Shown here: piece after piece, positions 3,814-29,946 of the stretch
Layout: the number at the start of each line of letters is the position of its first letter
Position numbering within the stretch: the stretch's first letter is position 1
Source: an uncultured Chitinophagaceae bacterium
GTDB taxonomy: Bacteria > Bacteroidota > Bacteroidia > Chitinophagales > Chitinophagaceae
Direction of reading: 5' to 3'
Assembly (NCBI GenBank): GCA_903904335.1
Contig: CAIVCF010000105.1
Span: 1 to 33,484 of the forward strand
Length of the DNA stretch: 33,484 nt
Position numbers and translations under genes: made by a program
Notes under the pieces: model-generated
What the model was told of the DNA's origin: nothing
Databases searched by the model: none
What the model saw: the letters and a program-made list of their open reading frames with translations, nothing else

Positions 3814-4059
3814 TTAGTTTTTAGAAAATGGCATTTCTTCACACTGATTTATTTCTTCGCTGTTCAACATCCAGTAAACAACATAATCGTCGTCTGATGG
3901 AAGATGAAAATGTTCAAGACAGATTTTGATCTTGTCCGCTTCAAATTCTTTGGTTATCCTGTTATTGTGATATTCTACCATTCTGTACACAAACCTTCCG
4001 TTTCTTTCAACATGGAAAAGTTTTATTGAAAATGGCATGTTATTATTTTTGTTTTTCAT
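3814..4059 (-). CDS. Uncharacterised 81-residue protein
   Basis: I do not recognise this protein. It has no signal peptide or membrane helix, and is rich in charged and aromatic residues, with an acidic C-terminal half. The pattern of alternating hydrophobic residues (FSIKLFHVE, RFVYRMVEY, DDYVVYWML) suggests a small beta-rich fold. A second in-frame ATG sits at residue 8, so the true start could be seven codons later. It is the last gene of a minus-strand unit that begins with two tandem 30-residue hydrophobic peptides (52-nt gap) and ends in the terminator at 3756-3727. A role linked to those peptides is inferred from position only. Confidence 0.6.
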   Translation of the reverse strand: MKNKNNNMPFSIKLFHVERNGRFVYRMVEYHNNRITKEFEADKIKICLEHFHLPSDDDYVVYWMLNSEEINQCEEMPFSKN

Positions 4060-4111
4060 GATATGGTATTAAAAAATGAACAACTATTCGCTGATAAGGC
4101 ATATAAAAAAC

Positions 4112-4204
4112 TTATGCAGTAATTGCAGAGATCAGCATGATTGTTACAAAAAAGATAGATAATGTGTTAGCGATCGTTTGGTCGATTTTGATTTGATTTT
4201 TCAT
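4112..4204 (-). CDS. Small hydrophobic peptide, 30 residues (copy A)
   Basis: Minus-strand ATG at 4202-4204, 30 codons, TAA at 4112-4114. It is polar for residues 1-12 (starting MKNQIKIDQTIANTL) and then one continuous hydrophobic stretch to the end (about residues 15-30), enough for a single membrane helix, with the N-terminus probably in the cytoplasm. Copy B, 37 nt upstream, is identical at 25 of 30 positions. The five changes are N/T, I/V, L/I, I/V and T/S, while nine other codons differ only synonymously, which is the mark of selection on a translated product. The function is unknown; small type I toxin-like or membrane-stress peptides are possible. Both copies have AAACC directly before the ATG. 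Confidence 0.72.
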   Translation of the reverse strand: MKNQIKIDQTIANTLSIFFVTIMLISAITA

Positions 4205-4241
4205 GGTTTCAGTTTTGTTTTTATGAATTGTGTTTTTGTTT

Positions 4242-4334
4242 TTACGCTGAAATAGCTGATACGATCATGATTGTAACAAAAAATACGGACAATGTGTTGG
4301 CGATTGTTTGATCGATTTTGATTTGAGTTTTCAT
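4242..4334 (-). CDS. Small hydrophobic peptide, 30 residues (copy B)
   Basis: Minus-strand ATG at 4332-4334, 30 codons, TAA at 4242-4244. It is the first gene of the minus-strand small-protein unit and the tandem paralogue of the peptide at 4112-4204: same length, same polar N-terminus with K2, K6, D8 and Q9, and the same C-terminal hydrophobic helix with a shared LS-x-FFVTIM core. Its C-terminus ends exactly on the hydrophobic stretch, so nothing would protrude on the far side of the membrane. It lies back to back with the ECF sigma factor gene (197 bp between starts), so both could share a control region. I do not recognise the family. Confidence 0.72.
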   Translation of the reverse strand: MKTQIKIDQTIANTLSVFFVTIMIVSAISA

Positions 4335-4531
4335 GGTTTTAAGTTTTTGAGTTTTGAATTGTTTGTTTGATAGGGTTGTATTCAATTCTGTGCCAAAACA
4401 TCAATTCATTGTAAATCAAATAGTTGTGTTTTTAAAGATTGTCTGTTTTGTCTAAAATCAGCAATTATTTTCCATTTTTCGGAATCAGAAGCCATTTCTC
4501 TGCTTTATGACTAGTTTAGCACCCACTATTT

Positions 4532-5095
4532 ATGAGCAATCTTTCTTCTTTCAATCCGGAGCACTGGGTTAAAAAATATGCTGATGCATTATATGCGTAT
4601 ACAGTTGTTCGTGTAAACGATTCAGGTTTGGCAGAAGACCTTGTACAGGAAACTTTTTTAAGTGCCTGGAAGGCTCGCGATTCTTATAAAGGCGAAGCCT
4701 CTGAAAAAAATTGGTTATTTACCATCTGTAAGAATAAGATCATCGATCATTACAGGAAAAAATCAAACAATATTGTACGCCCCGCTGAAATAGATAATAC
4801 AGATCATTATTTTAATAATGAAGAACATTGGACAAAAGAAAGCGGTCCTTTAGATTGGGGAATTGATTATACACAGCCCGTAGAAACCAAAGAATTCTAT
4901 TCTATTTTAGAATTATGTAAAAACAAATTGCAGGAATTGCAGCAAGCCGTTTTTGTTATGAAATTCATGGAAGGAGTTGGTTCTGACGAGATCTGTAAGG
5001 TTTTGAATATAACGCCGTCCAACTACTGGGTATTGATACATCGTGCAAAACTGCAGCTGCGCAGCTGTTTGGAGAAAAACTGGATAAACCCTTAG
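4532..5095 (+). CDS. ECF-type sigma-70 family RNA polymerase sigma factor
   Basis: This 187-residue protein has sigma region 2 at about residues 15-80 (SGLAEDLVQETFLSAWKAR and the -10 recognition part WLFTICKNKIIDHYRKK). After an acidic spacer comes region 4 at about 125-178 (LQELQQAVFVMKFMEGVGSDEICKVLNITPSNYWVLIHRAKLQLRSCLE). The size and the missing regions 1 and 3 place it in the extracytoplasmic-function group; it resembles the Bacteroidota subfamily I know as TIGR02943. It would direct RNA polymerase to a small stress regulon. A probable zinc-finger anti-sigma gene follows 6 nt later. The divergent membrane-peptide operon is a plausible target, but I found no matching promoter pair to prove it. 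Confidence 0.92.
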   Translation: MSNLSSFNPEHWVKKYADALYAYTVVRVNDSGLAEDLVQETFLSAWKARDSYKGEASEKNWLFTICKNKIIDHYRKKSNNIVRPAEIDNTDHYFNNEEHWTKESGPLDWGIDYTQPVETKEFYSILELCKNKLQELQQAVFVMKFMEGVGSDEICKVLNITPSNYWVLIHRAKLQLRSCLEKNWINP

Positions 5096-5101
5096 CCTAA
5101 T

Positions 5102-5356
5102 TTGAAAGATCTGATCAACATATCGTGTAAAAAAGCAACTTATCTTCTGTCGAAAAAAGAAGAACATGCACTTTCGTTTTTTGAAAAAATAAAATTGCAG
5201 ATCCATTTGTCTGTTTGTAGTTTCTGTCGTTTGTTTGAACAACAAAGCAAAATGATTTGTACCAACAGCAACCATGCTCATGATCATTATTCCGGCACAC
5301 TTTCTGACGCTTCAAAAGAAAAAATGATTCGGATTTTGAAAGAAAGAATTGATTGA
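5102..5356 (+). CDS. Zinc-finger (zf-HC2-like) anti-sigma factor, cytoplasmic
   Basis: An 84-residue soluble protein that starts 6 nt after the sigma-factor stop. No in-frame ATG exists before residue 51, so a TTG at 5102 is the likely start, with translational coupling to the sigma gene. The first half fits the zinc anti-sigma pattern: a Cys at position 9 followed by KKATYLLSKKEE, then H35-x3-C39-x2-C42 (HLSVCSFC). The second half has a short His-rich stretch (NHAHDHY) and a basic C-terminal helix. There is no membrane segment, so it should sequester the sigma factor in the cytoplasm and release it on oxidation or metal loss. Family assignment rests on the motif and on gene order. Confidence 0.75.
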   Translation: MKDLINISCKKATYLLSKKEEHALSFFEKIKLQIHLSVCSFCRLFEQQSKMICTNSNHAHDHYSGTLSDASKEKMIRILKERID

Positions 5357-5380
5357 ATTTTTCAATGACCTCAAATTTTA

Positions 5381-5412
5381 TTTTGCCGCAAGAATATGCA
5401 GCTCTACCTTTG
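5381..5412 (+). promoter_or_regulatory. Bacteroidota-type promoter for the mgtA transcript
   Basis: TTTTG at 5381-5385 and an exact TAnnTTTG box (TACCTTTG) at 5405-5412 are separated by 19 nt, which fits the known Bacteroidota sigma-A consensus (TTG, 17-23 nt, TAnnTTTG). Transcription would start near 5418, giving a leader of about 357 nt before the mgtA ATG at 5776. The box lies only 49 bp after the anti-sigma stop, so it serves the ATPase gene. Confidence 0.55.
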
Positions 5413-5775
5413 CAGCCGTTCTTACACAGAACCTCTATTGTAAACAAAAACAAACTGTATGGATTCGGGACCGAGTAAATTCAATTTAAACAAAACAACT
5501 TTTTGACCCGACTGTGATTTTTAAGCATTCAGTCGGCAAAAAAATTACCGAACAGCTTAAAAATGCGACCATGAATCGTTTCAATACATTCTCATTTCTT
5601 TCAACTCCTTCTTTTTTTATTGTAACAAAACGCTATCATCTTTTTTCTTCTGCCAAGATAAAGCCTCCGGTCGTCGGTCAGTTATGAAATAAATGGTAAT
5701 CAAAAATTAATCGAATAATGCGATTGTTTTTGATTGGAAAATGAATATTCACTTAAAATTTTCAGGAGGCAGAAT
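5413..5775 (+). promoter_or_regulatory. Long mgtA leader with two short ORFs and a hairpin
   Basis: This gene-free stretch of about 360 bp holds three items. At 5459-5506 is a 15-codon ORF (MDSGPSKFNLNKTTF) ending 1 nt before a perfect 7-bp inverted repeat, CCGACTG (5508-5514) and CAGTCGG (5530-5536), which is followed by an A run, not a T run. At 5571-5687 is a 38-codon ORF ending 88 nt before the ATPase start. A full Shine-Dalgarno AGGAGG at 5764-5769 precedes the ATG. Mg2+ transporter genes in other bacteria carry leaders with a leader peptide or an M-box riboswitch; I do not see the M-box consensus here. Control by the leader is inference. Confidence 0.4.
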
Positions 5776-8487
5776 ATGATCACAGGCGTAAAAGAAAAAA
5801 TAATGGCGCGTATCCCATTTAATAATGGAAATACTGTTATTTCTGTTGATGCTGTTGCTGCTGCAAAACTTAAAAATGTTGCTGCTGCCGATAAGATTTC
5901 ATTTTTTGAAATTTTAGATTCGGAAGAAACAGGCTTAAACAAAGAACAGGTTGAAGAAAGATTAGAAACATTCGGCACCAACGAAGTTGTACACGAAAAA
6001 GCACCGGCTTGGTATATCCAATTTATTCAGGCATTTATTACTCCATTTAATGCTGTATTGGTTTTAATTGCAGCTACTTCATTTATCATTGATGTTGTAT
6101 TAACATCCCCGGCCGATCGTGATTATAAAACAGTTGTGGTGGTTGGTGTGATGATCTTATTAAGCTCTGTGATCCGCTTCTGGCAAGAGTTTCGAAGCAA
6201 TGTAGCAGCAGAGAAATTAAAAAGCATGGTGAAGACCACTGCGACGGTTTTAAGAAAAGATGAAGGCAAAATTGAGATCGATATTAAAGAGATAGTTCCC
6301 GGAGATATTATCTTTCTCTCTGCAGGTGACATGATTCCAGCTGATTGCCGCATCATTCAATCAAAAGATCTGTTCTTAAACCAATCTACATTAACAGGCG
6401 AGGCAATGCCTGTTGAAAAAAAAGAGTTTGTCATTTCAGATACTCAAAATAAAAGTCCGCTTGAATTAGAAAATATTTGTTTCATGGGAACAAATGTGGA
6501 AAGCGGCCAAGCTTTAGCCATCGCAGTTACAACGGGCAACCACACTTATTTCGGCTCAATCAGTAAATCTATTTCCGGCAAACGTGCGGAAACAAGTTTT
6601 GATAAAGGCGTTAATAGTGTTAGCTGGCTGTTGATTCGTTTTATGCTTGTAATGGTGCCGTTGGTATTTGTGATTAATGGTCTAACAAAAGGAGATTGGG
6701 TAGAGGCTTTATTATTTGCGATTGCAGTTGCCGTTGGCTTAACGCCCGAAATGCTTCCAATGATCGTTACGGCAAATCTTGCCAAAGGCGCCGTAACCAT
6801 GAGTAAAAGAAAAGTGATAGTTAAAAGGTTAAGCGCCATTCAAAATATTGGTGCCATGGATATTTTATGCACCGATAAAACAGGAACATTAACCTTAGAT
6901 AAAATTGTTTTAGAGCGACACTTAAATGTTGAAGGTGTTGAAGATGATGAGGTATTAAAATGGGGTTATTTAAACAGTTATCATCAAACAGGATTAAAAA
7001 ATTTATTAGACGTTGCTATTCTTGATCACGTTGAAGTAAAGGATTATTTAAAAGTTGAAGAGCAATATAAAAAAGTTGATGAAATTCCTTTCGATTTTCA
7101 GCGAAGAAGAATGTCGGTTATTTTGGAACAGGCCAATCACAAACATCTTTTAATTTGTAAAGGTGCTGTTGAAGAAATATTGGATCTCTGTTCTTTTTCT
7201 TTCGACCCCGGAGAAGACCGTCAATTACATATTGAAGTTGATACTATTCAACCAATGGACGACACTATTCGAAAAAACATTCTCGATCTCTCCAAAAAAT
7301 TAAACAAAGAAGGGTTACGGGTTTTGTTGGTTGCTATTAAAGAGTATGAAGAACGTCCGCTGACTTATTCTGTTGCTGACGAAAGCAATATGATATTAAC
7401 AGGATTAATTGGTTTTCTCGATCCCGCAAAACCTTCTGCAAAGCCTTCTATTGAAGCATTGCATAAATTAGGTGTTACATTAAAAGTCCTGACCGGCGAT
7501 AATGATATTGTTACTAAAAAAATATGCCGTGATGTGGGTATCCCGGTCAATAATATTTTGTTAGGAAATGATTTGGAAAATATAACTGATGAAGAATTAT
7601 CTAAACGAATTGATGAGATTAGCATTTTCGCAAAACTAAGTCCGGCACAAAAAAGCCGCGTTGTAAAAGTATTGCAGGCGAAAGGCCATACAGTTGGATT
7701 TATGGGCGATGGTATTAATGATGCCGCCGCATTACGAGATGCTGATGTCGGCATTTCTGTTGATACAGCAGTGGATATCGCCAAAGAAAGTGCTGATATT
7801 ATTTTATTGGAAAAAGACTTAATGGTGTTGCGTAAAGGTGTTATTTACGGAAGAAGAACTTTCGGCAATATCATCAAGTATATTAAGATGACAGCCAGCA
7901 GCAATTTCGGAAACATGTTCAGTATGTTAGGTGCCAGTGCATTTCTTCCTTTCCTGCCGATGCTTCCGGTGCAGATATTGGTGCAGAATTTATTGTACGA
8001 TATTTCACAGATCTCCATTCCCTGGGATGAAATGGACAAAGAGTATATTGAAAAACCGCGTAAATGGGAAGCCGGTGGTATAGCACGTTTCATGATATTT
8101 ATTGGCCCCATCAGTTCTGTATTTGATTATGCAACATTTGCGGTGATGTATTTTGTTTTTAAAGCAAATTCTGCTGAACATCAAAGTCTGTTTCAATCGG
8201 GTTGGTTCATTGAGGGGTTGCTTTCTCAAACATTGATCGTTCACATGATACGTACCAAAAAAATTCCTTTCATACAAAGTTGGGCAACAGCGCCTGTGCT
8301 CGCATTAACAAGTGCGGTGATGCTGATTGGAATTTATATTCCTTTCTCACCATTTGCAACAGCGTTCAAATTACAACCGTTACCGTTACTGTATTTTCCT
8401 TGGTTGATAGGGATATTGATTTGTTATTGTTTGTTAACTCAATTCATCAAAAACTGGTTCATTAAAAAGTTTGCTTATTGGTTGTAA
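5776..8487 (+). CDS. mgtA: Magnesium-translocating P-type ATPase
   Basis: A 903-residue P-type ATPase of the IIIB (Mg2+ import) class. It has the actuator loop STLTGEAMPVEK (about residues 204-215), the phosphorylation site CTDKTGTLT (Asp367), the hinge motif GFMGDGINDAAALRDADVGIS, and a C-terminal membrane region with NFGNMFSMLGASAFLPFLPMLPVQIL, which is typical of MgtA/MgtB. It couples ATP hydrolysis to Mg2+ entry across the inner membrane. An in-frame ATG exists at 5734, but the ATG at 5776 has an AGGAGG 6 nt upstream and is preferred; the first start would add 14 residues. Length matches the family (about 900). It stands alone behind a long leader, which suggests regulation by Mg2+ supply. 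All catalytic motifs are intact. Confidence 0.93.
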   Translation: MITGVKEKIMARIPFNNGNTVISVDAVAAAKLKNVAAADKISFFEILDSEETGLNKEQVEERLETFGTNEVVHEKAPAWYIQFIQAFITPFNAVLVLIAATSFIIDVVLTSPADRDYKTVVVVGVMILLSSVIRFWQEFRSNVAAEKLKSMVKTTATVLRKDEGKIEIDIKEIVPGDIIFLSAGDMIPADCRIIQSKDLFLNQSTLTGEAMPVEKKEFVISDTQNKSPLELENICFMGTNVESGQALAIAVTTGNHTYFGSISKSISGKRAETSFDKGVNSVSWLLIRFMLVMVPLVFVINGLTKGDWVEALLFAIAVAVGLTPEMLPMIVTANLAKGAVTMSKRKVIVKRLSAIQNIGAMDILCTDKTGTLTLDKIVLERHLNVEGVEDDEVLKWGYLNSYHQTGLKNLLDVAILDHVEVKDYLKVEEQYKKVDEIPFDFQRRRMSVILEQANHKHLLICKGAVEEILDLCSFSFDPGEDRQLHIEVDTIQPMDDTIRKNILDLSKKLNKEGLRVLLVAIKEYEERPLTYSVADESNMILTGLIGFLDPAKPSAKPSIEALHKLGVTLKVLTGDNDIVTKKICRDVGIPVNNILLGNDLENITDEELSKRIDEISIFAKLSPAQKSRVVKVLQAKGHTVGFMGDGINDAAALRDADVGISVDTAVDIAKESADIILLEKDLMVLRKGVIYGRRTFGNIIKYIKMTASSNFGNMFSMLGASAFLPFLPMLPVQILVQNLLYDISQISIPWDEMDKEYIEKPRKWEAGGIARFMIFIGPISSVFDYATFAVMYFVFKANSAEHQSLFQSGWFIEGLLSQTLIVHMIRTKKIPFIQSWATAPVLALTSAVMLIGIYIPFSPFATAFKLQPLPLLYFPWLIGILICYCLLTQFIKNWFIKKFAYWL

Positions 8488-11609: not shown

Positions 11610-12101
11610 ATGATACAACCTACTACTAACCCAACGTATACGGTTATCAGCAATCATGGCTTTGCTGAAATCGTTCAAAATTCATTCACGCAACAAAGAT
11701 CGTTGCATGCTTTTACTGCATTTAAAGCTGGGGATATTCTCTCTTCTTTTTCTGCAGGAGAGATAGTATCACAACCAACATATCTCACCGTTCAGGTGGA
11801 TGTTGAAAAGCATATCACGCTTCGGCCTGAGTTTTTGCAATACATCAATCATAGTTGTAATCCTAATGTTTTTTTCGATACAACAACATTTCAATTGATT
11901 GCGCTGAAAAAAATTGAAATAGGTGATGAGTTCTCATTTTTCTATCCATCAACGGAATGGAATATGGCGCAACCTTTCAATTGTTTTTGCAATACCGCAA
12001 ATTGTTTGCATCAGATACAGGGTGCTGTTTATTTAGACGATGCTGTTTTACAGAAATATCGTTTAACAGATTTTATACGCGAACAAATTCGTAAACGATA
12101 A
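11610..12101 (+). CDS. SET-domain protein, probable lysine methyltransferase
   Basis: A compact 163-residue SET protein. It carries the S-adenosylmethionine-binding motif YINHSCNPNVFF (residues 79-89), the GDEFSFFY segment with the probable catalytic Tyr112, and a post-SET zinc motif CFCNTANC (Cys125, 127 and 132). The N-terminal SET strand region is short but present (residues 12-50). SET enzymes methylate lysine side chains; in bacteria the targets are poorly known. It is the first gene of a three-gene unit: an ATP-grasp ligase begins 16 nt later, and the third gene fuses ATP-grasp to a second SET domain. The pairing suggests that both activities act on the same peptide or protein. The target is unknown. 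Confidence 0.85.
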   Translation: MIQPTTNPTYTVISNHGFAEIVQNSFTQQRSLHAFTAFKAGDILSSFSAGEIVSQPTYLTVQVDVEKHITLRPEFLQYINHSCNPNVFFDTTTFQLIALKKIEIGDEFSFFYPSTEWNMAQPFNCFCNTANCLHQIQGAVYLDDAVLQKYRLTDFIREQIRKR

Positions 12102-12117
12102 CAACAGCAATTTCCTG

Positions 12118-13233
12118 ATGGCACCTAATCCCCATAAAAAAAAATCATCTGCCTTAAAAGTCTGGGTATTGGCTCCGCATCTCATCACCAACGATGCGAA
12201 CCTTGATTATTATTACGATTTCACTCAAAGCATTGCCGAATACAGCAAAGTCTTTACAGAACTGGGTTTACAATGGCATTGGCAACCTGTAACAATGCAT
12301 GACTATAAAGAAGTGATCAATGAAATTGTTGCAGAAAAAAAATCAAAAAAATTCTTTCCGCTCATTTTAAATTTATGTGATGGAGATGAAATAAATGGAA
12401 CACCGGGAGTTTCTGTTTTAAAATATTTGGATGAAAAAGATTTGATCTACACGGGTGCGGATGAATATTTTTATCAGGTTACCACATCAAAGATCTCTAT
12501 GAAAGAAGCTTTTGATGATGCGAATGTTCCCACACCAAAATGGTTTGCCATTAATAAAAGAGATCAAAACGTAAAAAATATTTTTAAAAGATTGGGATCG
12601 CCAATCATTGTGAAGCCATCAATTTCGGGCGGAAGTATGGGTGTCGGGATTAAAAATGTAGTGAATGATCTGAGTGAATTGAATAAACAGGTTGAATTGA
12701 TGTTTGATGGTTATCGCGGATGGGATTTAACCGCCGATGGTTTAATTGCCGAATCATTTATTAACGGACCCGAGTTTACATCACTCATCGTTGGATCTTA
12801 CGACAAACCTGAAGAAGCCATTATTTACAATCCGGTTGAAAGAGTATTTCATCCTTCACTCCCTGAACAGGAAAAATTTTTATCCTTCGATCGTTTATGG
12901 GAAATATATGAAGAAGAAACACCCATGCCCGAAGATGAAAACTTTTATGAGTATCAATCACCCGATGCATCATTGATCGAAGAAATAAAACAATTAAGTT
13001 GGGATGCTTATTGTGCGGTAAAAGGAAGAGGTTATACAAGGATCGATATCCGCATGGATAAAGAAACTAAAAAATTATACGTCCTCGAAGTAAATGCGCA
13101 ATGCGGTATCAGCGAAGATGAAGACTTTACATCAATCGGTGCTATCTTACGTTTTTCAAATAAAACTTTCTCTCAATTGGTAACAGAGATCATTAATGAT
13201 GCTGTTGCCAGAACCCCGGTACTCGTATCATGA
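12118..13233 (+). CDS. ATP-grasp amide ligase (D-Ala-D-Ala ligase-like)
   Basis: This 371-residue protein has a D-Ala-D-Ala-ligase-like ATP-grasp fold: an N-terminal domain with NLCDGDEINGTPG (about 85-97), the ATP-binding Lys166 and Gly-rich loop KPSISGGSMGVG, the second ATP strand IAESFINGPEF, and the Mg2+ site RIDIRMD (308-314) with EVNAQCG (324-330). In true D-Ala-D-Ala ligases the last motif is EVNxxPG, so Ala-Gln-Cys here and a different C-terminus argue against cell-wall dipeptide synthesis. Expected chemistry is ATP-dependent joining of a carboxylate to an amine through an acyl phosphate. It overlaps the next gene by 4 nt (ATGA at 13230-13233) and the two proteins are probably partners. 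Substrates are unknown. Confidence 0.88.
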   Translation: MAPNPHKKKSSALKVWVLAPHLITNDANLDYYYDFTQSIAEYSKVFTELGLQWHWQPVTMHDYKEVINEIVAEKKSKKFFPLILNLCDGDEINGTPGVSVLKYLDEKDLIYTGADEYFYQVTTSKISMKEAFDDANVPTPKWFAINKRDQNVKNIFKRLGSPIIVKPSISGGSMGVGIKNVVNDLSELNKQVELMFDGYRGWDLTADGLIAESFINGPEFTSLIVGSYDKPEEAIIYNPVERVFHPSLPEQEKFLSFDRLWEIYEEETPMPEDENFYEYQSPDASLIEEIKQLSWDAYCAVKGRGYTRIDIRMDKETKKLYVLEVNAQCGISEDEDFTSIGAILRFSNKTFSQLVTEIINDAVARTPVLVS

Positions 13234-14657
13234 AGATCTGTGTGTTGCAACCCGATTACTCAACATCATCCGTGGATTATCAATATTACGATCCGCCGAG
13301 AGACTTGTCCCACCTGATTCCAGAGGCAACAGTTGATCATGTGTTGTTGAATAAATTATCTGTTTATAAACAACTCAAAGAATTAAAAAAGAAGAATTAC
13401 GATGTGTTTGTGAATTTATGCGAAGGATATTTAGATTGGAATATTCCTTCCATTGATGTGATCTATACTTTAGAATTATTGAATCTTCCGCACACCGGTC
13501 CCTCAACTTTATTATACGATCCAACAAAAGAGTTGATGAAATATGTGGCGTATTGCGAAGGCGTAAAAACACCTGCTTATTTTTTAATTGAAGAATTAAG
13601 CGATGTTGAAAAAACCTGTAAGCATTTACAATTTCCTTTGTTTGTAAAACCAGCAAAAGCAGGCGATAGTTTGGGTGTGGACGAACATTCTCTGGCACTT
13701 GATAAAAAACATTTGCAGGAAAAAGTTGCCGCTATTATTGATGAATATGACAAAGTGCTGGTAGAAGAATATATTGACGGAAGAGAATTTACCGTTTTGG
13801 TTGCGGCAAATGCTGATGGAAAAACATCAACTGCTTTTCGTCCGGTTGAATTTATTTTTCCTGAAGGAAATAAGTTCAAGACCTATGCACTAAAAACTTC
13901 CGAACTCCATCCCGATGCAAATATTCCCGTTACTGATATTGCGCTCGATAAACAATTGCGTGAAAGTGCGCAACGCATTTTTAAATCATTCAATGGTGTG
14001 GGTTATGCAAGAATGGATTTCAGGATGAATGATAAAGGCGACATTTTTTTTCTTGAAATAAACTTTACCTGTTCTGTTTTTTATAAAGACGGGTATGAAG
14101 GTTCGGCAGATTATATTTTAAAATATGATGGGTTTGGTCAATCCGGTTTTTTACATCATATCATCGCCGAAGGTATTGCCCGTCACAACAGAAAACAAAA
14201 GCTGTATGTGATGAAAGGCAATTCCATTGCGGGTTTCGGCATTTATGCGAATAAAAATATTAAGGCCGGTGAAATTATTTTTCTGGGAGAAGGAAGATCT
14301 CAAAGATTAATTACGCGTCGCTTTGTAGAAAAAACATGGAACGAAAATGATAAAGAAATTTTTCGCCGGTATGCTTATCCTGTAAGCAAAGAAATATTTT
14401 TATTATGGGATGATAATCCTGCCGAATGGGCGCCGCAAAATCATTGCTGCGATGCCAACACAGGATATGTTGGTTTAAATGTTGTTGCTTTAAAAGATAT
14501 TTCAAAAGGCGAAGAACTTACACTCGATTATACTTCTTTCCTCGATGAAAACATGGAACCCTTTAATTGCAGTTGCGGCAGCCCAAACTGCCGCGGATTG
14601 ATTGAAGGAATAAAAAATAACTCGTTGACGGAGAGAGAAAATTTGGACAGTATTTAA
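13230..14657 (+). CDS. ATP-grasp ligase fused to a C-terminal SET domain
   Basis: A 475-residue two-domain protein. Residues 1-320 are an ATP-grasp ligase paralogous to the upstream gene, with NLCEGYLDWNIPS, KPAKAGDSLGVD (Lys140), VEEYIDGREF and the Mg2+ motifs RMDFRMND and LEINFTC. Residues 325-460 are a SET domain: GFGIYANKNIKAGEIIF, NHCCDAN in place of the usual NHSCxPN (404-410), GEELTLDY with the probable catalytic Tyr434, and a post-SET zinc motif (Cys447, 449 and 454). The fusion implies one substrate handled by both activities, for example ligation of an amino acid and methylation of a lysine or amine. The Ser-to-Cys and Pro-to-Ala changes in the SAM motif may alter activity. The stop shares TTAA with the convergent DUF4238 gene. 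Confidence 0.88.
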   Translation: MKICVLQPDYSTSSVDYQYYDPPRDLSHLIPEATVDHVLLNKLSVYKQLKELKKKNYDVFVNLCEGYLDWNIPSIDVIYTLELLNLPHTGPSTLLYDPTKELMKYVAYCEGVKTPAYFLIEELSDVEKTCKHLQFPLFVKPAKAGDSLGVDEHSLALDKKHLQEKVAAIIDEYDKVLVEEYIDGREFTVLVAANADGKTSTAFRPVEFIFPEGNKFKTYALKTSELHPDANIPVTDIALDKQLRESAQRIFKSFNGVGYARMDFRMNDKGDIFFLEINFTCSVFYKDGYEGSADYILKYDGFGQSGFLHHIIAEGIARHNRKQKLYVMKGNSIAGFGIYANKNIKAGEIIFLGEGRSQRLITRRFVEKTWNENDKEIFRRYAYPVSKEIFLLWDDNPAEWAPQNHCCDANTGYVGLNVVALKDISKGEELTLDYTSFLDENMEPFNCSCGSPNCRGLIEGIKNNSLTERENLDSI

Positions 14658-15697
14658 TTTTTCTTCTGCTCTTTTTCTAAAAATTCTTTCATTTTTTTTG
14701 CATGTTGACGCATTGGTAATATCAATTTACCGTGTATTGCAAATTGTTGACTTGTTACAGGATTTATTGCCGTTAGGTTTAAGTTAATTTTCAATTCTGA
14801 AATTGTTTGCAAAAAATAACCCCCAAATTTGATTGGAATAATCTCATTAGGTAGTCGATAATTTTTTGCTTGGTTTACTAACGAGATGATATCTGATTCA
14901 TTAATATCTTGGTTGAAATACAAACAATTTGAAGAATTAAGAACTTGAAGAAGGTTTAATTGAGATATTTCTGAATCTTTTATTATATGGAGCAAATCTT
15001 TTTCATCTTCGTGTATTTCATATGCTTTTGAATCATAAAATAGCAACATCGTTGTTGGAGTTATTGGAAGAAAAATCTGTAATCCATAAGATGCAAATCC
15101 TGCTGAAACTCCTTTGCTTCTATCTGCGATCATGTTGTATTTTAAAGTAGGATTATCAGAAATAATGAACGGTGTTGATGTCTTATTCACAATTATTTTA
15201 CTTGATAAATCAAGACACATTCTCGCTATTCGGAAGCTTTGAGATAATGATAGAATTATAGATTGTGTTGTCGTTAGTTTATTATCTAAAAGAGATTTAA
15301 TTTCTGGGCTTGATTTGAATTCTTCAAAATGCTTATTGAAACCATCATCTGAATTAAGAAGCGTTTGAGATTGAACAGGATTTCTAAAGTATAAATTAAT
15401 GACGAAATGTAATATCCTAAAATAATCCTCAAGTGGTGTTTTAATAATTTCACAATCTTCGCATATTTTATTAAAAACTCTTGATGCTGGCCCCTCAATT
15501 TCCATTAATAAGTTTTCAACTTTTCCATCTTCGCCATAGTAAAATGGTTTTTGCGATTGACCTTCAATGGATGCGCTTTTAATAAACTTTTTATTGTCTT
15601 TTAAAAAGACACCAATGCTTTTCTCATCATTATTATTTGAAAATTTTTTCAAATAAAATCTTGGAACAAAATGTTGTCTTTCTTTTTCTGATTTCAT
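14654..15697 (-). CDS. DUF4238-domain protein
   Basis: A 347-residue protein beginning MKSEKERQHFVPRFYLKKF, the hallmark N-terminus of the DUF4238 family (QHxVPxFYL). A central part carries PFIISDNPT, another family feature. The function of the family is not established; it is scattered among bacteria and often strain-specific. The open frame extends ten codons further upstream, but the ATG at 15695-15697 has a full AGGAGG 6 nt before it and overlaps the stop of the zinc-ribbon gene by 4 nt, so I chose it. The two genes form a coupled pair. There is no signal peptide or membrane segment. Its stop overlaps the stop of the SET fusion gene in the palindrome TTAA. Confidence 0.85.
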   Translation of the reverse strand: MKSEKERQHFVPRFYLKKFSNNNDEKSIGVFLKDNKKFIKSASIEGQSQKPFYYGEDGKVENLLMEIEGPASRVFNKICEDCEIIKTPLEDYFRILHFVINLYFRNPVQSQTLLNSDDGFNKHFEEFKSSPEIKSLLDNKLTTTQSIILSLSQSFRIARMCLDLSSKIIVNKTSTPFIISDNPTLKYNMIADRSKGVSAGFASYGLQIFLPITPTTMLLFYDSKAYEIHEDEKDLLHIIKDSEISQLNLLQVLNSSNCLYFNQDINESDIISLVNQAKNYRLPNEIIPIKFGGYFLQTISELKINLNLTAINPVTSQQFAIHGKLILPMRQHAKKMKEFLEKEQKKN

Positions 15698-16071
15698 TCT
15701 TCTTTCCTCCTCACAATCAAATACCAATTATTTTCCAACGGCAAAAACCCATAATCGTAATTAAAGAAATAGATATTGCCTTTTTTGTTGGCGTAAGTAT
15801 GCGTGTGGTATTTAAAAACAAAACCTTTTTGTATTAATTTATCGTGTGTTGTTTTTGCAGTTTCTTCTGCATCGGGCAACAGTTCTTCGAGAATGCGGCG
15901 GTTCTTCAATAATGTGTTATTGATATTGCGAACGTAATTGCTGTAATTGCTTTTTGTTTTGAGTTCGTTGTTGTAAGCGTTACGGCAGGCATCGTCACAA
16001 AATTTTTTATCTGCTCTGCCTTTAATGGCTTTGCCGCAGCTTAAACATTTTTTGGTTTCTGTTACAGGCAT
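15694..16071 (-). CDS. Small zinc-ribbon protein (uncharacterised)
   Basis: A 125-residue protein with an N-terminal treble-clef-like zinc site, Cys9-x2-Cys12 and Cys25-x3-Cys29 (CLSCGK ... KKFCDDAC), like the DUF2116-type zinc ribbons. A basic, Asn-rich helical region follows (about 33-90), and a C-terminal beta-rich piece ends in YDYGFLPLENNWYLIVRR. The zinc site and basic helix suggest nucleic-acid binding, but this is inference. It is the first gene of the unit and overlaps the DUF4238 gene start by 4 nt, so both are probably made in fixed ratio. I know similar conserved hypothetical proteins in Bacteroidota but no function for them. Confidence 0.75.
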   Translation of the reverse strand: MPVTETKKCLSCGKAIKGRADKKFCDDACRNAYNNELKTKSNYSNYVRNINNTLLKNRRILEELLPDAEETAKTTHDKLIQKGFVFKYHTHTYANKKGNIYFFNYDYGFLPLENNWYLIVRRKEE

Positions 16072-24758: not shown

Positions 24759-25484
24759 TTAATTTTCAGGATTAGGTGTTTGATGATGATTTCTTTCAAA
24801 CACTTCTTCTTCAATAAATTTCCATCCTCCGCCCATACTGCTTATTTCTCCTCTGCCTTCAACATAATCATGGTAGAAAACCAGATACACATGTATCACT
24901 GCAAATAAAATAAAGAACCACATGGACCAATGATGAATTTGTCTTGTCAGGATGTCTCCTCCCAAAAAGGCGGGTACCCATGTAAATAATTTTGGTAACC
25001 ACCATGTACTCATCGGTGCGTATAAACCAAAACCAGTAAGACATTGAATCAGGAATGCAAGAAAGGTTAAGAAATAAATAAATCCCGCCATAGCATTGTG
25101 GCCAATGCTCATGTGTTCTTTTCCTTTCAGCATCATGATGTCCATTCTGAAAACATACCACATTTCTTTAAAGAACTTTTTAGAGATCGGTAAGAATTGT
25201 TTCCAGTTGGCATATTTATTTCCAACAAAACCCCAGTACAAACGAAATAAAAAATTAAAGAAGAAAAGATATGCTGCTGCGAAGTGTATATAGCGTACCC
25301 AGCCCATTGTATATTGACCGGATGCTTCGTGTTGACTTTGTATTGCTAAAGGATTAGCAATATAAAAACCCGTTGCGATCAGTGCAATAATTACCAATGC
25401 ATTGAGCCAATGATAAAAGCGTACTGGCAGTTCCCAAACATACACCCTGCGAAGCCTGTGAATATGCAAATATTTTGTTGCCAT
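24759..25484 (-). CDS. hyaC: Ni/Fe-hydrogenase b-type cytochrome subunit
   Basis: A 241-residue membrane protein with four predicted transmembrane helices and the haem-ligand histidines of the HyaC/HupC family: VRFYHWLNALVIIALIATGF near the N-terminus, RYIHFAAAYLFF, and the last helix with IHHWSMWFFILFAVIHVYLVFYHDYVEGRGEISS, which is the family end signature. It anchors the hydrogenase dimer to the periplasmic face of the inner membrane and passes electrons from H2 to quinone through two b haems. It sits 16 nt after hyaB in the operon. Its presence marks the enzyme as a respiratory uptake hydrogenase, not a soluble one. Confidence 0.95.
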   Translation of the reverse strand: MATKYLHIHRLRRVYVWELPVRFYHWLNALVIIALIATGFYIANPLAIQSQHEASGQYTMGWVRYIHFAAAYLFFFNFLFRLYWGFVGNKYANWKQFLPISKKFFKEMWYVFRMDIMMLKGKEHMSIGHNAMAGFIYFLTFLAFLIQCLTGFGLYAPMSTWWLPKLFTWVPAFLGGDILTRQIHHWSMWFFILFAVIHVYLVFYHDYVEGRGEISSMGGGWKFIEEEVFERNHHQTPNPEN

Positions 25485-25500
25485 AAAAAAAGTTTAGAAA

Positions 25501-27225
25501 TTAATCTCCCAATATGTTTATACGGCTGATGTGTTTTCCGTCTTCGTCGTACACGTGAACACTGCAAGCCATGCATGGATCAAAACTGTGAATGGTTCTT
25601 ATAATTTCAAGCGGTTGTTTTTCATCTGCAACCGGTGTATCAATTAAAGAAGATTCATACGCAGACATTTGACCTTTGTTATCTCTTGGTGATGCGTTCC
25701 ATGTTGTTGGAACAACCAATTGATAATTAGCGATCTTTTCGTCTTCAATGTTGATCCAATGTGCCAATGCACCTCGAGGTGCTTCAGTATGTCCAACACC
25801 TTGAGCTGATTTCGGCCATGTTGATGGATCGAACTTACTCATCTCTGCCATGCGGCTGTCACCATTCTTAATATTGGCAATCAGTTTATCGAAAAAATCT
25901 AATCCCCATTGCGCAACCAATACACTTTCTAAACCACGAGCCGCAGTTCTTCCTAATGTTGAGAATAATGCCGTTACAGGAACATTCAGGTCTTTCAAAG
26001 CCTTATCAACAACAGCTTTGAAGTCTTCTCTTCCTCTTGCATAACCCACCAATACACGTGCTAATGGGCCTACTTCCATTGCATTGCCCTTCCATCTAGG
26101 TGTTTTTAAATAACTGTATTCTTTGCTTGTATCTAAATGATCGAACGGTGGTTTTGGTCCGGTGTAGTTTACCTTGCTTTCTCCTTTCCATGGATGCAAT
26201 CCCTTGTCTTTTCCTTCTTTGTATTCATACCATGAGTGTGTGATGAATTCCTGCACTTCATCATCTTTCTTCAAATCAACATCATAAACTTTACTGATGT
26301 CTTTATTTAAAATCGCACCTGCGGGGAATTTATAGGATGAAAGGTCTCTGTAACCATTGGTCGGTAGATCACCATACACTAAATAATTTCCTAAGCCGCC
26401 GCCAATGGCGCCCCAATCTTTATAGAAAGATGCGATTGCCATCAGATCAGGAATATAAACCTGTTCAACAAATTCTTTTCCGTCTTTTAATAATTGTCCT
26501 ACATAAGCCAATCTTTCTGCATTAATTCCGCTAACATCATCAATGCTGATAGAACAAGCCATACCTCCAACTAAATAATTTGGATGTGGATTTTTACCAC
26601 CGAAAATGGCATGTACTTTTACGATTTCTTTTTGCCATTCTAATGCTTCGAGATAATGTGCCAATCCGATCAAATTGACTTCAGCAGGAAGTTTATACGC
26701 AGGATGACCCCAATATCCATTGGCAAAAATTCCCAATTGTCCGCTCTCAACGAATTTTTTTACTCTGGTTTGAATATCACTGAAATATCCGGGAGAGCTT
26801 TTTGGCCATTTTGAAATGCTTTGTGCTAATTCTGATGTTTTCTTTGGGTCTGCTTTTAGTGCATTCACTACATCCACCCAATCCATTGCGTGCAAATGAT
26901 AAAAATGCACAACGTGATCGTGAATGTATTGTGTGCAGAACATGATATTTCTTACTAATTCTGCATTGGGCGGAATGGTGATATCCAAGGCGTCTTCCAC
27001 ACAACGAACAGATGTTAAGGAATGTATGGAAGTACAAACTCCGCATACCCTTCCTACAAATGCCCATGCATCTCTTGGATCTCTTCCTTTTAAAATCTCT
27101 TCCAGCAAACGAACCATCGTTCCGCTGCTGTAAGCGTCTTTAATTTTGCCGTTTTCTATATCGGCTTCTATTCGCAGATGACCTTCGATTCTCGTGATCG
27201 GATCAACAACAATTCTTTTACTCAT
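25501..27225 (-). CDS. hyaB: [NiFe]-hydrogenase large (catalytic) subunit, group 1
   Basis: A 574-residue catalytic subunit. The N-terminal nickel motif RVCGVCTSIH (Cys61, Cys64) and the C-terminal motif DPCMACSVH (Cys551, Cys554, His557) supply the four cysteines of the Ni-Fe(CN)2CO centre. RIEGHLR and GHTEAPRGALAHW are also conserved. Seventeen residues follow His557 and should be cut off by HyaD after nickel insertion. It splits H2 into protons and electrons and pairs with HyaA, which carries the Tat signal for both. Sequence features match the group 1d type (E. coli Hyd-1, Ralstonia membrane-bound). The stop of hyaA is 25 nt upstream, and hyaC follows. No key residue is missing. Confidence 0.97.
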   Translation of the reverse strand: MSKRIVVDPITRIEGHLRIEADIENGKIKDAYSSGTMVRLLEEILKGRDPRDAWAFVGRVCGVCTSIHSLTSVRCVEDALDITIPPNAELVRNIMFCTQYIHDHVVHFYHLHAMDWVDVVNALKADPKKTSELAQSISKWPKSSPGYFSDIQTRVKKFVESGQLGIFANGYWGHPAYKLPAEVNLIGLAHYLEALEWQKEIVKVHAIFGGKNPHPNYLVGGMACSISIDDVSGINAERLAYVGQLLKDGKEFVEQVYIPDLMAIASFYKDWGAIGGGLGNYLVYGDLPTNGYRDLSSYKFPAGAILNKDISKVYDVDLKKDDEVQEFITHSWYEYKEGKDKGLHPWKGESKVNYTGPKPPFDHLDTSKEYSYLKTPRWKGNAMEVGPLARVLVGYARGREDFKAVVDKALKDLNVPVTALFSTLGRTAARGLESVLVAQWGLDFFDKLIANIKNGDSRMAEMSKFDPSTWPKSAQGVGHTEAPRGALAHWINIEDEKIANYQLVVPTTWNASPRDNKGQMSAYESSLIDTPVADEKQPLEIIRTIHSFDPCMACSVHVYDEDGKHISRINILGD

Positions 27226-27250
27226 ATAGCAAGTTGAATTTTTTTATAAA

Positions 27251-28384
27251 TTATGATTTCAATTCTTGTTCGCTTTGTTTTCCCTGTTTTTCCAATTCGA
27301 AAATGAGTTTCTTCTTGCGAACATTTGTTGCAACAGCGTGTGCAGCAATGGCAACGCCGGTAACGGCTAATGCAGTTTTACCCAAAGTATCAGCGTTGGC
27401 TTCAATACCAAATCCGGCAAATGCAGAAGCTCTTTCATATAATCTGCCATTATCCCAATAATTTTCTTCGCTGCACCCTATACATCCGTGACCTGATTGA
27501 ATTGGATAACTTGTTCCATTATTCCATTTCATTACGCCGCATGCATTATAGGTAGATGGTCCTTTACAACCAACTTTATACAAGCAATATCCTTTCTTAG
27601 CATTTTCGTCATCAAATGTTTCAACAAATAAACCGGCATCATAGAATGGCCTGCGATAGCAACTATCATGAACGCGTTTACTGTAAAATGCTTTTGGTCT
27701 TCCTACTCTGTCTAATTCGGGGATCTTTCCAAATGTTACCAGATGAACGATCACGCCTGCCATTACTTCTCCGATCGGAGGACATCCCGGTACTTTAATT
27801 AAAGGCACATTACCTTTTAATAATTTATGAATAGGTGTTGCTTTTGTTGGATTTGGTTTTGCTGATTGAACACAACCATTACTAGCACAACTGCCCCAGG
27901 CAATTACTGCTTTTGCTCCGGCTGCAGCTTCTTCCAAAATCTGCATTGATGTTTTGCCACCAATCATACAATACACACCATCAGCTCCGGTTGGAACACT
28001 TCCCTCTACACAAAGAATATATTCTCCTTTGTATTTGGTCATCGTGTTCTTCATAGCTTCTTCAGCCTGAAATCCTGATGCTGCCATTAGTGTTTCTGAA
28101 TAATCGAGAGATATTTTGTCTAATAAAATATCTGCAACAATTGGGTGAGATGATCTGATAAAGCTTTCGCTGCAACAGGTACACTCCTGGAAATGTAACC
28201 ATATAACAGGTATGCGTGGCTTGGTTTCTAATGCTTTGGCAACTTGACCAATAGCAGATTTTTCTAAGCCCATAAATGCGGTCATCATTGTAACAAAGCC
28301 GATAAAATCTCGGCGAGAGTAGCCCTTTCGCTCAACTTCCTGATAGTAGGTTGGCTGAGTGTTTTGAGAAGCATCGTTAGTCAT
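27251..28384 (-). CDS. hyaA: [NiFe]-hydrogenase small subunit, Tat-exported, oxygen-tolerant type
   Basis: A 377-residue subunit that carries electrons through three Fe-S clusters. A twin-arginine signal (SRRDFIGF at residues 23-30) directs folded export. The proximal cluster motif ECTCCSES has Cys68, Cys70 and Cys71, and WGSCASNGCVQ has Cys166 and Cys171. Cys70 and Cys171 correspond to the two extra cysteines (19 and 120) of E. coli Hyd-1 that build the oxygen-tolerant 4Fe-3S cluster. Other cluster motifs are PGCPPIGE, HDSCYRR, GCKGPSTYNAC and GHGCIGCSE. A hydrophobic helix near 330-350 anchors the C-terminus. It is the first gene of the operon and faces the maturation genes across the control region at 28385-28559. 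Confidence 0.97.
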   Translation of the reverse strand: MTNDASQNTQPTYYQEVERKGYSRRDFIGFVTMMTAFMGLEKSAIGQVAKALETKPRIPVIWLHFQECTCCSESFIRSSHPIVADILLDKISLDYSETLMAASGFQAEEAMKNTMTKYKGEYILCVEGSVPTGADGVYCMIGGKTSMQILEEAAAGAKAVIAWGSCASNGCVQSAKPNPTKATPIHKLLKGNVPLIKVPGCPPIGEVMAGVIVHLVTFGKIPELDRVGRPKAFYSKRVHDSCYRRPFYDAGLFVETFDDENAKKGYCLYKVGCKGPSTYNACGVMKWNNGTSYPIQSGHGCIGCSEENYWDNGRLYERASAFAGFGIEANADTLGKTALAVTGVAIAAHAVATNVRKKKLIFELEKQGKQSEQELKS

Positions 28385-28468
28385 GCTGATTGTTTTAAAG
28401 GTTAAACGTTGTATTAAAGGTTAAGATCCAATTCTGGCGCTAATGTAATCTCTGTATATACTACGTTC

Positions 28469-28486
28469 TTATGACCTTTATCATTC
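28469..28486. promoter_or_regulatory. CRP/FNR-type operator proximal to hyaA
   Basis: TTATGA-N6-TCATTC, whose centre (28477.5) lies 37.5 nt from the last base of the TACATTAG box on the minus strand, a distance that puts an activator near -42. The right arm is imperfect compared with the second site. The N6 spacing and TGA/TCA core fit the CRP/FNR family. Confidence 0.45.
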
Positions 28487-28490
28487 GGTG

Positions 28491-28508
28491 TTATGACTTT
28501 TATCATAA
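28491..28508. promoter_or_regulatory. CRP/FNR-type operator proximal to the hyp operon
   Basis: TTATGA-N6-TCATAA is a perfect palindrome. Its centre (28499.5) is 36.5 nt from the last base of the TAATATTG box on the plus strand, again near -42, and 22 bp (two helical turns) from the centre of the first site. Which regulator binds is unknown. Confidence 0.5.
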
Positions 28509-28559
28509 ATACAATTTCTGTATCGTACTAATATTGGTTTCTTAAATAAACAGAGTCAT

Positions 28560-28763
28560 ATGAAAAAAATTATTTTGTTCGCAAGTCTTTTTATTTTGTG
28601 TATGCCTTTATTCAGTCTTGCCCATCCTGGTCATGGTACAACAGACGGATACACCATCATCCATTATTTTGTTGAGCCGATGCATGCGGTCGTAACACTG
28701 AGTGCATTATTCGGTTCCATTGTTTATATCCGCCATTTGCGCAGAAATAAACAAAACAATTAA
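28560..28763 (+). CDS. Small HupE-like membrane protein with His motif
   Basis: A 67-residue protein with a signal peptide (residues 1-20, ending SLA), then HPGHGTTDGY, a short segment HYFVEPMHAV, one membrane helix (about 43-59) and a basic tail RHLRRNK inside. Processing after Ala21 would leave the His motif HPGHG at the new N-terminus, in the periplasm. HupE/UreJ nickel permeases start with the same HPGHG and have an FxxPxxxxxH helix, but are about 190 residues with six helices; this looks like only the first part of one. It leads the maturation operon, 10 nt before hypA. A role in nickel binding or delivery is plausible but unproven. Confidence 0.6.
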   Translation: MKKIILFASLFILCMPLFSLAHPGHGTTDGYTIIHYFVEPMHAVVTLSALFGSIVYIRHLRRNKQNN

Positions 28764-28773
28764 AGAAAGAATC

Positions 28774-29115: not shown

Positions 29116-29148
29116 CAAATTAAAATTATAACACTAAATATTTACAAA

Positions 29149-29910: not shown

Positions 29911-29946
29911 TGAATTCTTGTAGTTATAATAAAGAGTATTTTGTTT

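Follow-up and report, generated by a model that had tools for sequence, protein, structure and literature searches.

A Recurrent Bacterial Cassette of SET-Domain Methyltransferases and Ddl-like ATP-Grasp Ligases with a Possible Role in Small-Molecule Biosynthesis

Three adjacent genes in the window (the whole 33,484-nucleotide stretch of Chitinophagaceae DNA analyzed here) encode a stand-alone SET-domain methyltransferase (SET1), a stand-alone ATP-grasp ligase (AG1), and a fusion of the two domain types (AGSET, with its methyltransferase half termed SET2). The occurrence of the set together in many relatives, often with a transporter-like gene, suggests that it makes an exported, methylated small molecule, and we put the probability that these genes are devoted to the biosynthesis of such a product, with an amide linkage, at about 0.5. 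The cassette is small, with three or four genes, and its distribution is widespread but patchy. The habitual reading of a SET domain is that of a protein-lysine methyltransferase, and discussion of the bacterial enzymes often centers on what they do to host chromatin. The joining of such a domain to an amide-forming ligase, next to a BurB-type SET and a partner of the exporter type, suggests that one branch of the bacterial SET enzymes works in the synthesis of small molecules.

Gene Organization

The features of the cassette are as follows (window positions; + denotes the forward strand).

11610–12101, +: SET1, stand-alone BurB-type SET-domain methyltransferase, 163 aa; ATG start; Pfam SET 2.5e-7 (residues 65–112)
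11787–11813, +: [ST]xQx5H motif of SET1, TVQVDVEKH, residues 60–68; aligns with the BurB segment around Thr73–His81
12118–13233, +: AG1, stand-alone Ddl-like ATP-grasp ligase, 371 aa; ATG start; Pfam Dala_Dala_lig_C 8.6e-16
13087–13107, +: predicted Mg2+-binding motif EVNAQCG of AG1; DdlB Glu270 and Asn272 positions kept in 34/34
13230–14657, +: AGSET, ATP-grasp–SET fusion, 475 aa; ATG start; ligase residues 1 to ~325, SET ~326–475
14052–14072, +: predicted Mg2+-binding motif LEINFTC of AGSET; DdlB Glu270 and Asn272 positions kept in 38/38
14232–14531, +: SET2 with GxG, NHxC, and catalytic Tyr; PF00856 3.2e-10
14568–14591, +: post-SET CxCxxxxC of AGSET; C447, C449, and C454 invariant in 38/38 rows

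The initial annotation had described a tight operon with two SET and two Ddl-like ATP-grasp domains, one gene being fused, and this description holds. The open reading frame coordinates match exactly the reported 16-nt gap between SET1 and AG1 (12102–12117) and the 4-nt overlap between AG1 and AGSET (13230–13233), the Pfam matches of all three proteins exceed gathering scores, and both reported ligase motifs, EVNAQCG and LEINFTC, are found in the sequence. AGSET matches Dala_Dala_lig_C (8.7e-23, residues 126–278) as well as SET (1.3e-9, residues 335–434), and its AlphaFold (AF2) model has a pLDDT of 88.8 and a pTM of 0.86. Among the best 80 of 81 loci, AGSET relatives display 61–93% identity, and AG1 lies directly upstream of AGSET in 78/80, including one locus with AG1 split in two pieces (L084); the exceptions are a contig that begins within AGSET (L026) and a locus without an AG1 match (L052). 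Named Sediminibacterium and Terrimonas strains are among the bacteria with such loci. Given this recurrence across loci, with AG1 upstream in nearly all, the fusion is more than a chance event. A promoter scan of the cassette returned 6 promoter-like sites versus 16.0 in shuffles. The corresponding terminator scan gave 6 terminator-like sites versus 2.8 in shuffles (sd 2.0) and was not used, since all six fall within SET1 or AGSET.

Two Different SET Domains

Judged by sequence, SET1 belongs to a group of BurB-type SET proteins, a grouping made in the present analysis. BurB from Burkholderia thailandensis (PDB 9l4t, 9l4v) is a SET-domain methionine S-methyltransferase that methylates free methionine (PMC12542666). 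It is the best solved relative of SET1 in profile searches (1.7e-17) and the closest fold match to its AF2 model (pLDDT 92.4; Z 15.2 versus 11.8 for the best non-BurB entry), and both are stand-alone SET proteins of ~165 aa. The two share the [ST]xQx5H segment (27/27 SET1 rows), a Yx[ST]TE segment (21/27), and the post-SET cysteines, but their identity is 28%. Of the BurB SAM contacts compared (PMC12542666), H93 is kept in SET1 whereas H72, R133, and H138 are not, and the R42 position is occupied by Gln in the SET1 of the window. Besides the 27 rows, the [ST]xQx5H motif is present in 2/2 SET1 proteins from the related genus g105 and in 7/7 other SET1-like proteins, which were chosen because they match SET1. 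It is found in 0/24 SET2, 0/3 mini-SET proteins, 0/2 other SETs of the window's genome, and 0/2 SETs of a further genome (G257), against a background of 3.4% of shuffled sequences.

Plasmid-borne relatives of SET1 were found in ten records, of which six, from outside the phylum, were read. Small-molecule genes adjoin four of the six: one sits beside a PKS cluster that contains a BurB orthologue, and the neighbors of the other three are a PLP decarboxylase, an AdoMet decarboxylase, and a racemase/PLP-enzyme cassette. The remaining two have no obvious small-molecule pathway alongside, and the Sphingomonas one also adjoins signaling-type genes. In view of the BurB-type grouping and these four neighborhoods, methylation of protein lysines is not the activity we would first assign to SET1. 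By analogy to BurB, its most likely role is the SAM-dependent methylation of some small substrate, such as a free amino acid; naming methionine, or a different amino acid, would be a guess drawn from the substrate of BurB.

The motifs of SET2 are intact, comprising the N-terminal GxG, an NHxC-type SAM motif, the catalytic Tyr, and the post-SET cysteines, with G335, G337, N404, H405, C407, and Y434 invariant in 38/38 rows. In SET1, N80, H81, C83, Y112, C125, C127, and C132 are invariant across 27 rows, which have no conserved N-terminal GxG SAM motif. For the SAM pocket of the SET domains, whose absence would have spoken against the initial annotation, the comparison was one of motifs: SET2 retains all of them, and SET1 lacks the usual GxG.

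Characterized SET enzymes mostly act on protein lysine, and the main rival to the small-molecule reading is a protein-modifying system. In that reading the ligases would attach amino acids to the C-terminus or a side chain of a protein whose lysines the SETs methylate, much as tubulin or ribosomal proteins are modified. SET2 fits histone methyltransferases (4.7e-13) about as well as BurB, whose match (4e-14, in the C-terminal part only) is hardly better, and in one relative (L152) the genes downstream of AGSET encode an N-formylglutamate amidohydrolase, a MATCAP-type protein (tubulin carboxypeptidase family), and a glutathione-synthetase-type ATP-grasp enzyme. Eukaryotic TTLL12 likewise combines SET-like and ATP-grasp-type domains, but it is reported to be inactive in vitro and has the opposite domain order (PMC3520985). 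Protein modification seems unlikely, given that the ligase half of AGSET resembles Ddl (best Z 28.3 against Ddl structures), a joiner of small amino acids, that SET1 is BurB-type, and that the cassette is associated with an exporter-type gene.

Distribution and Linkage

In a sample of 195 genomes of the same family, AGSET is present in 59, AG1 in 60, and SET1 in 59; AGSET co-occurs with AG1 in 59 genomes and with SET1 in 57. The set thus recurs in many genomes and is not limited to the strain of the window, a prospect that the initial annotation had entertained. SET1 is unlinked, on another contig or >1 Mb distant, in five genomes (G025, G463, G501, G526, and G573). Co-occurrence is near-perfect even with these included, so the three genes can be taken as one functional unit, as initially proposed. 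A leucyl-tRNA synthetase gene identified by Pfam is the direct neighbor of the unlinked SET1 in G501, G573, and G025, and a similar open reading frame, recognized by eye, lies one gene off in G526; none is nearby in G463. We read this as an inherited position rather than a functional link.

The cassette reaches other classes of the same phylum. In a phylum-wide sample, the full fusion was found in 17/395 genomes, and strong SET1 matches in 15, all among those 17. In genus g105, whose members carry bacteriochlorophyll genes, the order SET1–AGSET–full ABC exporter–mini-SET is found on one strand in 3/4 loci read (G259, G223, and G171), the cassette being interrupted by a contig end in the fourth. 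AGSET occurs without nearby SET1, AG1, or ABC membrane gene in 4/4 loci read from the class of G390. Other phyla were sampled through plasmid records alone, and absence of the cassette outside the phylum is accordingly not claimed; in the AGSET search of plasmids (465 records), none reached 80% coverage of AGSET.

Some of these patterns would also fit two linked yet separate activities, with the ligases making a small peptide and the SETs acting elsewhere, whether in regulation, say, or by modifying the ligase. SET1 is unlinked in the genomes named above, and G265 and G390 carry AGSET with no SET1 found genome-wide at the threshold used. We nonetheless consider such a division decidedly unlikely: SET1 and AGSET are both present in 57 of the 61 family genomes having either, and the aligned full-length AGSET members carry SET2 joined to their ligase, a single ligase-only relative (G667) having been seen.

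An Exporter-Type Partner and the Search for a Precursor Peptide

The three genes named by the initial annotation stand, but an exporter-type fourth partner had been overlooked. A gene for an ABC-exporter membrane domain is present in 25 family genomes, together with AG1 in 25/25, AGSET in 24/25, and SET1 in 24/25. It was not found in the window's own genome or in 35 of the 60 AG1-bearing family genomes. Because the Chitinophagaceae membrane protein lacks an ATPase domain, export is uncertain in that family.

Loci of graspetides commonly hold methyltransferases and ABC exporters along with their ATP-grasp enzymes (PMC8939145), which could suggest RiPP tailoring enzymes with an overlooked precursor peptide, and precursor genes can sit elsewhere in the genome. 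The initial annotation had seen no precursor gene next to the cassette, and the wider search agrees, with no convincing candidate among ATG-started ORFs of 15–91 aa lying up to 1 kb from the cassette at 80 loci. Thirty-three short-ORF groups recur in at least 5 of the 80 loci, 30 of which overlie larger called ORFs; of the other three, two run on into ORFs of 79–98 aa, one of these acylphosphatase-like, and the third is a 16-aa ORF at ten loci in a single group of close relatives. Given this outcome within 1 kb and the Ddl-like ligases of AG1 and AGSET, a RiPP origin appears highly improbable.

Ligases Related to, but Distinct from, Ddl

AG1 and the ligase half of AGSET share with Ddl the fold and the core ATP-grasp catalytic residues. 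The equivalents of DdlB K97, K144, E187, R255, D257, E270, and N272, which we take to be the ATP/Mg and catalytic residues, are kept in 38/38 AGSET and 34/34 AG1 sequences, the K97 equivalent being R in four distant AGSETs. In contrast, most of the presumed D-Ala subsite residues (DdlB E15, S150, Y216, S281, and L282) are replaced. The S150 equivalent is D in 38/38 AGSET and G in 34/34 AG1 (S in 2/4 distant AGSETs), that of Y216 is T or W, and that of L282 is S throughout; E15 is kept in 0/38 AGSET and 3/34 AG1, and S281 in 1/38 and 0/34, respectively. Against the NCBIfam Ddl models, AG1 scores at best 86.2 bits (cut-off 243) and AGSET 90.1 (cut-off 245.65), whereas a separate Ddl in the window's genome passes with 373.3 bits (cut-off 310). 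Phylogenetically, AG1 forms a sister clade to the AGSET ligase domain, apart from Ddl (support 100/99, with a program warning of long branches), and AGSET further differs from Ddl in bearing the fused SET domain.

AG1 and the AGSET ligase are therefore unlikely to be ordinary D-Ala-D-Ala ligases, in keeping with the doubt first expressed about a cell-wall role. Alternative cell-wall ligases of the D-Ala-D-X type with accessory methylation of the wall peptide would suit the fold and Pfam family, both those of D-Ala-D-Ala ligase, but this is the least probable reading considered, being rejected on the residues, cut-offs, and tree. A phage or defense role was likewise rejected, as the SET1 and AGSET profiles found no relative in the viral contigs searched and PADLOC returned no match for the three proteins.

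Proposed Pathway

For the favored small-molecule cassette, we infer small substrates, an order of steps, export, and, like the initial annotation, that methylation and ligation fall on one and the same molecule. SET1 would use SAM to methylate a small substrate such as a free amino acid. AG1 and the AGSET ligase half would each spend ATP to convert a carboxylate into an acyl phosphate and then condense it with an amine, using substrates other than D-Ala, and SET2 would methylate either what the ligase half of AGSET takes in or what it makes. The ABC-exporter membrane protein, or the full ABC exporter, would move the product out in many relatives. A more specific and unlikely version holds that AGSET is a bifunctional ligase-methyltransferase fed an amino acid methylated by SET1, perhaps the sulfonium S-methylmethionine, and that its products, in Chitinophagaceae as in the bacteriochlorophyll-gene-bearing genus, are methylated di- or tripeptides of a new class that are exported. 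If AGSET does build such peptides, SET domains would be a recurrent tool of bacterial small-molecule chemistry.

Comparison with Known Systems

Operons of this kind may already be mentioned in the 2009 amidoligase survey by Iyer and colleagues. In the open-access literature searched, TTLL12 was the only ATP-grasp/SET fusion, and no combination of Ddl with a SET domain was found. BurB serves sulfonium/DMSP synthesis, and the excerpt of PMC12542666 describes no accompanying ATP-grasp ligase. Operons for non-ribosomal peptides with one or two ATP-grasp peptide ligases, or an amino-acid methylase, are described in the excerpt of PMC2922099; these resemble the cassette in uniting peptide ligases and amino-acid modification within small operons, but are built around oxygenase-cupin proteins, with no SET enzyme mentioned in that excerpt. 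TTLL12 (PMC3520985) resembles AGSET in carrying a SET-type and an ATP-grasp-type domain in one protein, but places the SET domain first and a TTL-type ligase second, whereas AGSET begins with a Ddl-type ligase. Critical residues are reported missing in TTLL12 (PMC3520985), while AGSET keeps both motif sets.

A Compact Unit of Two SET Domains and Two ATP-Grasp Domains

Three adjacent genes in the window encode a stand-alone SET protein (SET1), a stand-alone D-Ala-D-Ala ligase (Ddl)-like ATP-grasp ligase (AG1), and an ATP-grasp–SET fusion (AGSET), the SET domain of which is termed SET2.

11610–12101, + strand: SET1, 163 aa; Pfam SET
12118–13233, + strand: AG1, 371 aa; Pfam Dala_Dala_lig_C
13230–14657, + strand: AGSET, 475 aa; Pfam Dala_Dala_lig_C and SET

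Reading of the ORFs returned exactly the coordinates of the initial annotation, with its 16-nt gap between SET1 and AG1 and 4-nt overlap between AG1 and AGSET, and Pfam agrees on two SET and two Ddl-like ATP-grasp domains with one gene fused, all matches of the three proteins exceeding gathering scores. The structural comparison with Ddl that it had proposed was made with a model of AGSET (pLDDT 88.8, pTM 0.86), residues 1–324 of which superpose on a Ddl structure (Z 28.3, rmsd 2.5, 295 residues). Because the match list for the whole model consists entirely of ligase structures, assessment of the SET half relied on sequence. A DUF4238 gene (14654–15727, − strand; Pfam 3e-36) is convergent with AGSET, the 3′ end of which it overlaps by 4 nt. 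Further along (24759–32283) lie NiFe hydrogenase genes (large subunit, small subunit, cytochrome b) and maturation genes (CobW/HypB-type protein, HypF).

Conservation and Co-occurrence

A genome scan found 81 AGSET relatives, and 80 loci were kept (identity 61–93%); where a title names a lineage, it is Chitinophagaceae or a broader Bacteroidota name. AG1 lies immediately 5′ of AGSET in 78/80 loci, and SET1 immediately 5′ of AG1 in 40/80 (tblastn); in 33 of the 40 loci lacking an adjacent SET1, more than 2 kb of sequence is present upstream of AG1, so SET1 is truly nonadjacent there. Among 195 genomes sampled from the window's family, AGSET occurs in 59 (36/101 genera), AG1 in 60, and SET1 in 59, with AGSET and AG1 sharing 59 genomes and AGSET and SET1 sharing 57. 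AGSET occurs without SET1 in G546 and G562, and SET1 without AGSET in G540 and G542, in both of which the SET1 or AG1 match falls less than 1 kb from a contig end. Fisher values for the three gene pairs (≤3e-44) show only that the link is not loose, since the genomes are related and hence not independent. The neighborhood search suggested in the initial annotation thus recovers a recurring, conserved unit. The ligases and SET domains might still represent separate activities, and SET1 is present away from AG1-AGSET in five genomes (G025, G463, G501, G526, G573), while G266 carries the SET1-AG1 pair and AGSET on different contigs; co-occurrence of the three genes nevertheless persists even where they are unlinked.

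Ligase Domains Compared with Ddl

Aligning 38 AGSET and 34 AG1 sequences to DdlB of E. coli and to the Ddl of the window's genome bears on whether these proteins are wall ligases. Both families share with Ddl the positions that we take to serve ATP/Mg binding and catalysis: DdlB K144, E187, R255, D257, E270, and N272 are unchanged in 38/38 AGSET and 34/34 AG1, and K97 is Lys, with Arg in four distant AGSETs. In contrast, the presumed D-Ala-serving positions (E15, S150, Y216, S281, L282) are mostly replaced, although gaps near residue 216 may shift the alignment there by 1–2 residues. In place of S150, Asp is found in 38/38 AGSET and Gly in 34/34 AG1, with Ser in two of the four distant AGSETs. 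Neither AG1 nor AGSET approaches the Ddl cut-offs, missed by a wide margin, which the genome's own Ddl passes. In a 32-row tree (8/38 AGSET, 7/34 AG1, the four distant AGSETs, and 13 others), the ligase domains of AG1 and AGSET are placed as sister clades, separate from both Ddl and the remaining ATP-grasp proteins (support 100/99, with a program warning of long branches). The earlier view that they differ from true D-Ala-D-Ala ligases is borne out, and the wall-ligase reading fares accordingly poorly.

SET Domains Compared with BurB

SET2 retains GxG, NHxC, the catalytic Tyr, and the post-SET cysteines in 38/38 sequences; SET1 retains NHxC, Tyr, and the post-SET cysteines in 27/27, with no conserved GxG in the 27-row alignment. 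The closest solved relative of SET1 is BurB, a SET-domain methionine S-methyltransferase from Burkholderia thailandensis, by profile (1.7e-17 versus 3.3e-8 for the next) and by fold (Z 15.2, rmsd 3.6, 129 residues, 28% identity; best other entry 11.8). SET1, a BurB orthologue, and other SET1-like proteins also share the motif [ST]xQx5H, which is absent from SET2, from the genome's other SETs, and from mini-SET, a small SET gene of g105 (a related genus with bacteriochlorophyll genes), and arises in 3.4% of shuffled sequences. A tree built from 37 of the 67 SET sequences splits 18 motif-bearing rows from 12 SET2 rows (support 96/82); placement of the other seven, including mini-SET and four long-branch rows, is not settled, and the tree therefore does not establish a single motif-bearing clade. 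Free methionine is the substrate that BurB methylates (PMC12542666). The likeness to BurB leans toward a small substrate for SET1, but most BurB SAM contacts are not kept, which counts against simple transfer of BurB function.

ABC-Type Partners and Relatives Elsewhere in the Phylum

In 23/80 loci, the gene that comes next, 44–218 nt 3′ of AGSET on the same strand, encodes a ∼300-aa product. Two tested members match ABC_membrane_3 (2.4e-45 and 1.7e-37), with no ATPase domain found in either. A profile of this partner matches 25/195 family genomes (E ≤ 1e-30), which carry AG1 in 25/25, AGSET in 24/25, and SET1 in 24/25; the profile search did not find it in the window's own genome. One locus (L158) reads AG1-AGSET-ABC-SET1.

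Across a phylum sample of 395 genomes, AGSET matches at 1e-25 occur in 85, of which 17 hold the full fusion (E ≤ 2e-132) and 68 match in the ligase part. Strong SET1 (E ≤ 3.1e-29) occurs in 15 genomes, all inside the 17; the fusion stands without it in G265 and G390, whereas in G312 the fusion is missing and a SET1-like protein matches less strongly (5e-27). Weak SET1-profile matches in G257 and G265 (2–3e-13) are other SET domains. The class of G259 has the fusion in 9/98 genomes, all g105, with mini-SET, a second and weaker SET1-profile match near the fusion, in 8/9. Three g105 loci (G259, G223, G171) read SET1-AGSET-ABC transporter-mini-SET on one strand, with AG1 absent and a transporter having membrane and ATPase domains; the contig of a fourth (G199) ends inside AGSET. 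The G171 cassette directly adjoins genes whose products pass the NCBIfam cut-offs for BchD and BchI, consistent with green sulfur bacteria. Here (L156:1–3618, −), these magnesium chelatase genes and one for a DUF3479 protein come after the cassette on its own strand; neighbors in G223 and G259 are unlike those in G171. The class of G390 has the full fusion in 4/195 genomes, a fifth (G667) having the ligase part only, and SET1, AG1, and ABC-membrane profiles matched nothing besides AGSET itself within 12.8–14 kb around the four fusions. In G265 (L152:2041–5872, −), AGSET lies upstream, on the same strand, of N-formylglutamate amidohydrolase, MATCAP-type protein, and glutathione-synthetase-type ATP-grasp genes.

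Proposed Working and Known Systems

The analysis establishes the gene unit, its intact motifs, and its changed D-Ala site. The likeliest working is a pathway, inferred to be small-molecule in nature, in which SET1 would methylate a small substrate resembling an amino acid, amide bonds would be formed via acyl phosphates by AG1 and by AGSET's ligase half, and SET2 would supply a methyl group within that pathway. Some carriers may export the product through an ABC protein; the order of the steps, like export, is conjectural. Competing readings are a protein-modifying system, separate activities, a RiPP pathway with a hidden precursor, and a wall ligase. As one ligase suffices in g105, AGSET would be the core. 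Within the open-access literature searched, ATP-grasp and SET domains appeared together only in the paper on TTLL12 and in one on drug side effects; an earlier mention elsewhere is possible. TTLL12 differs in being eukaryotic, with domain order the reverse of AGSET and no detected activity (PMC3520985). Operons pairing peptide ligases with amino-acid-modifying enzymes are already known (PMC2922099).

Plasmid-Borne and Other Neighborhoods

Ten plasmid records carry SET1 relatives, of which six were read; three of the other four are near-copies of the Streptomyces one. The Eleftheria relative, in a PKS cluster, is a clear BurB orthologue (249 bits). Others adjoin a PLP decarboxylase, with signaling-type genes on the opposite side (Sphingomonas), adjoin an AdoMet decarboxylase (Rhizobium), or sit in a GHMP-kinase/PLP-enzyme/racemase cassette (Tabrizicola); those of Streptomyces and Deinococcus have no clear pathway alongside. 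On a Thioflavicoccus plasmid (L104:3485–7831, +), a Ddl-like ATP-grasp gene is lined up with genes for diaminobutyrate transaminase, SbnA, and ornithine cyclodeaminase; this is probably a further ligase system for a small molecule. At L197, SET is combined with AdoMet decarboxylase and spermidine synthase in one 617-aa protein (5465–7318, −), and the gene after it encodes a 483-aa protein that also bears SET (3989–5440, −); both lack the BurB-type motif, and the pair possibly links SET domains to polyamine metabolism.
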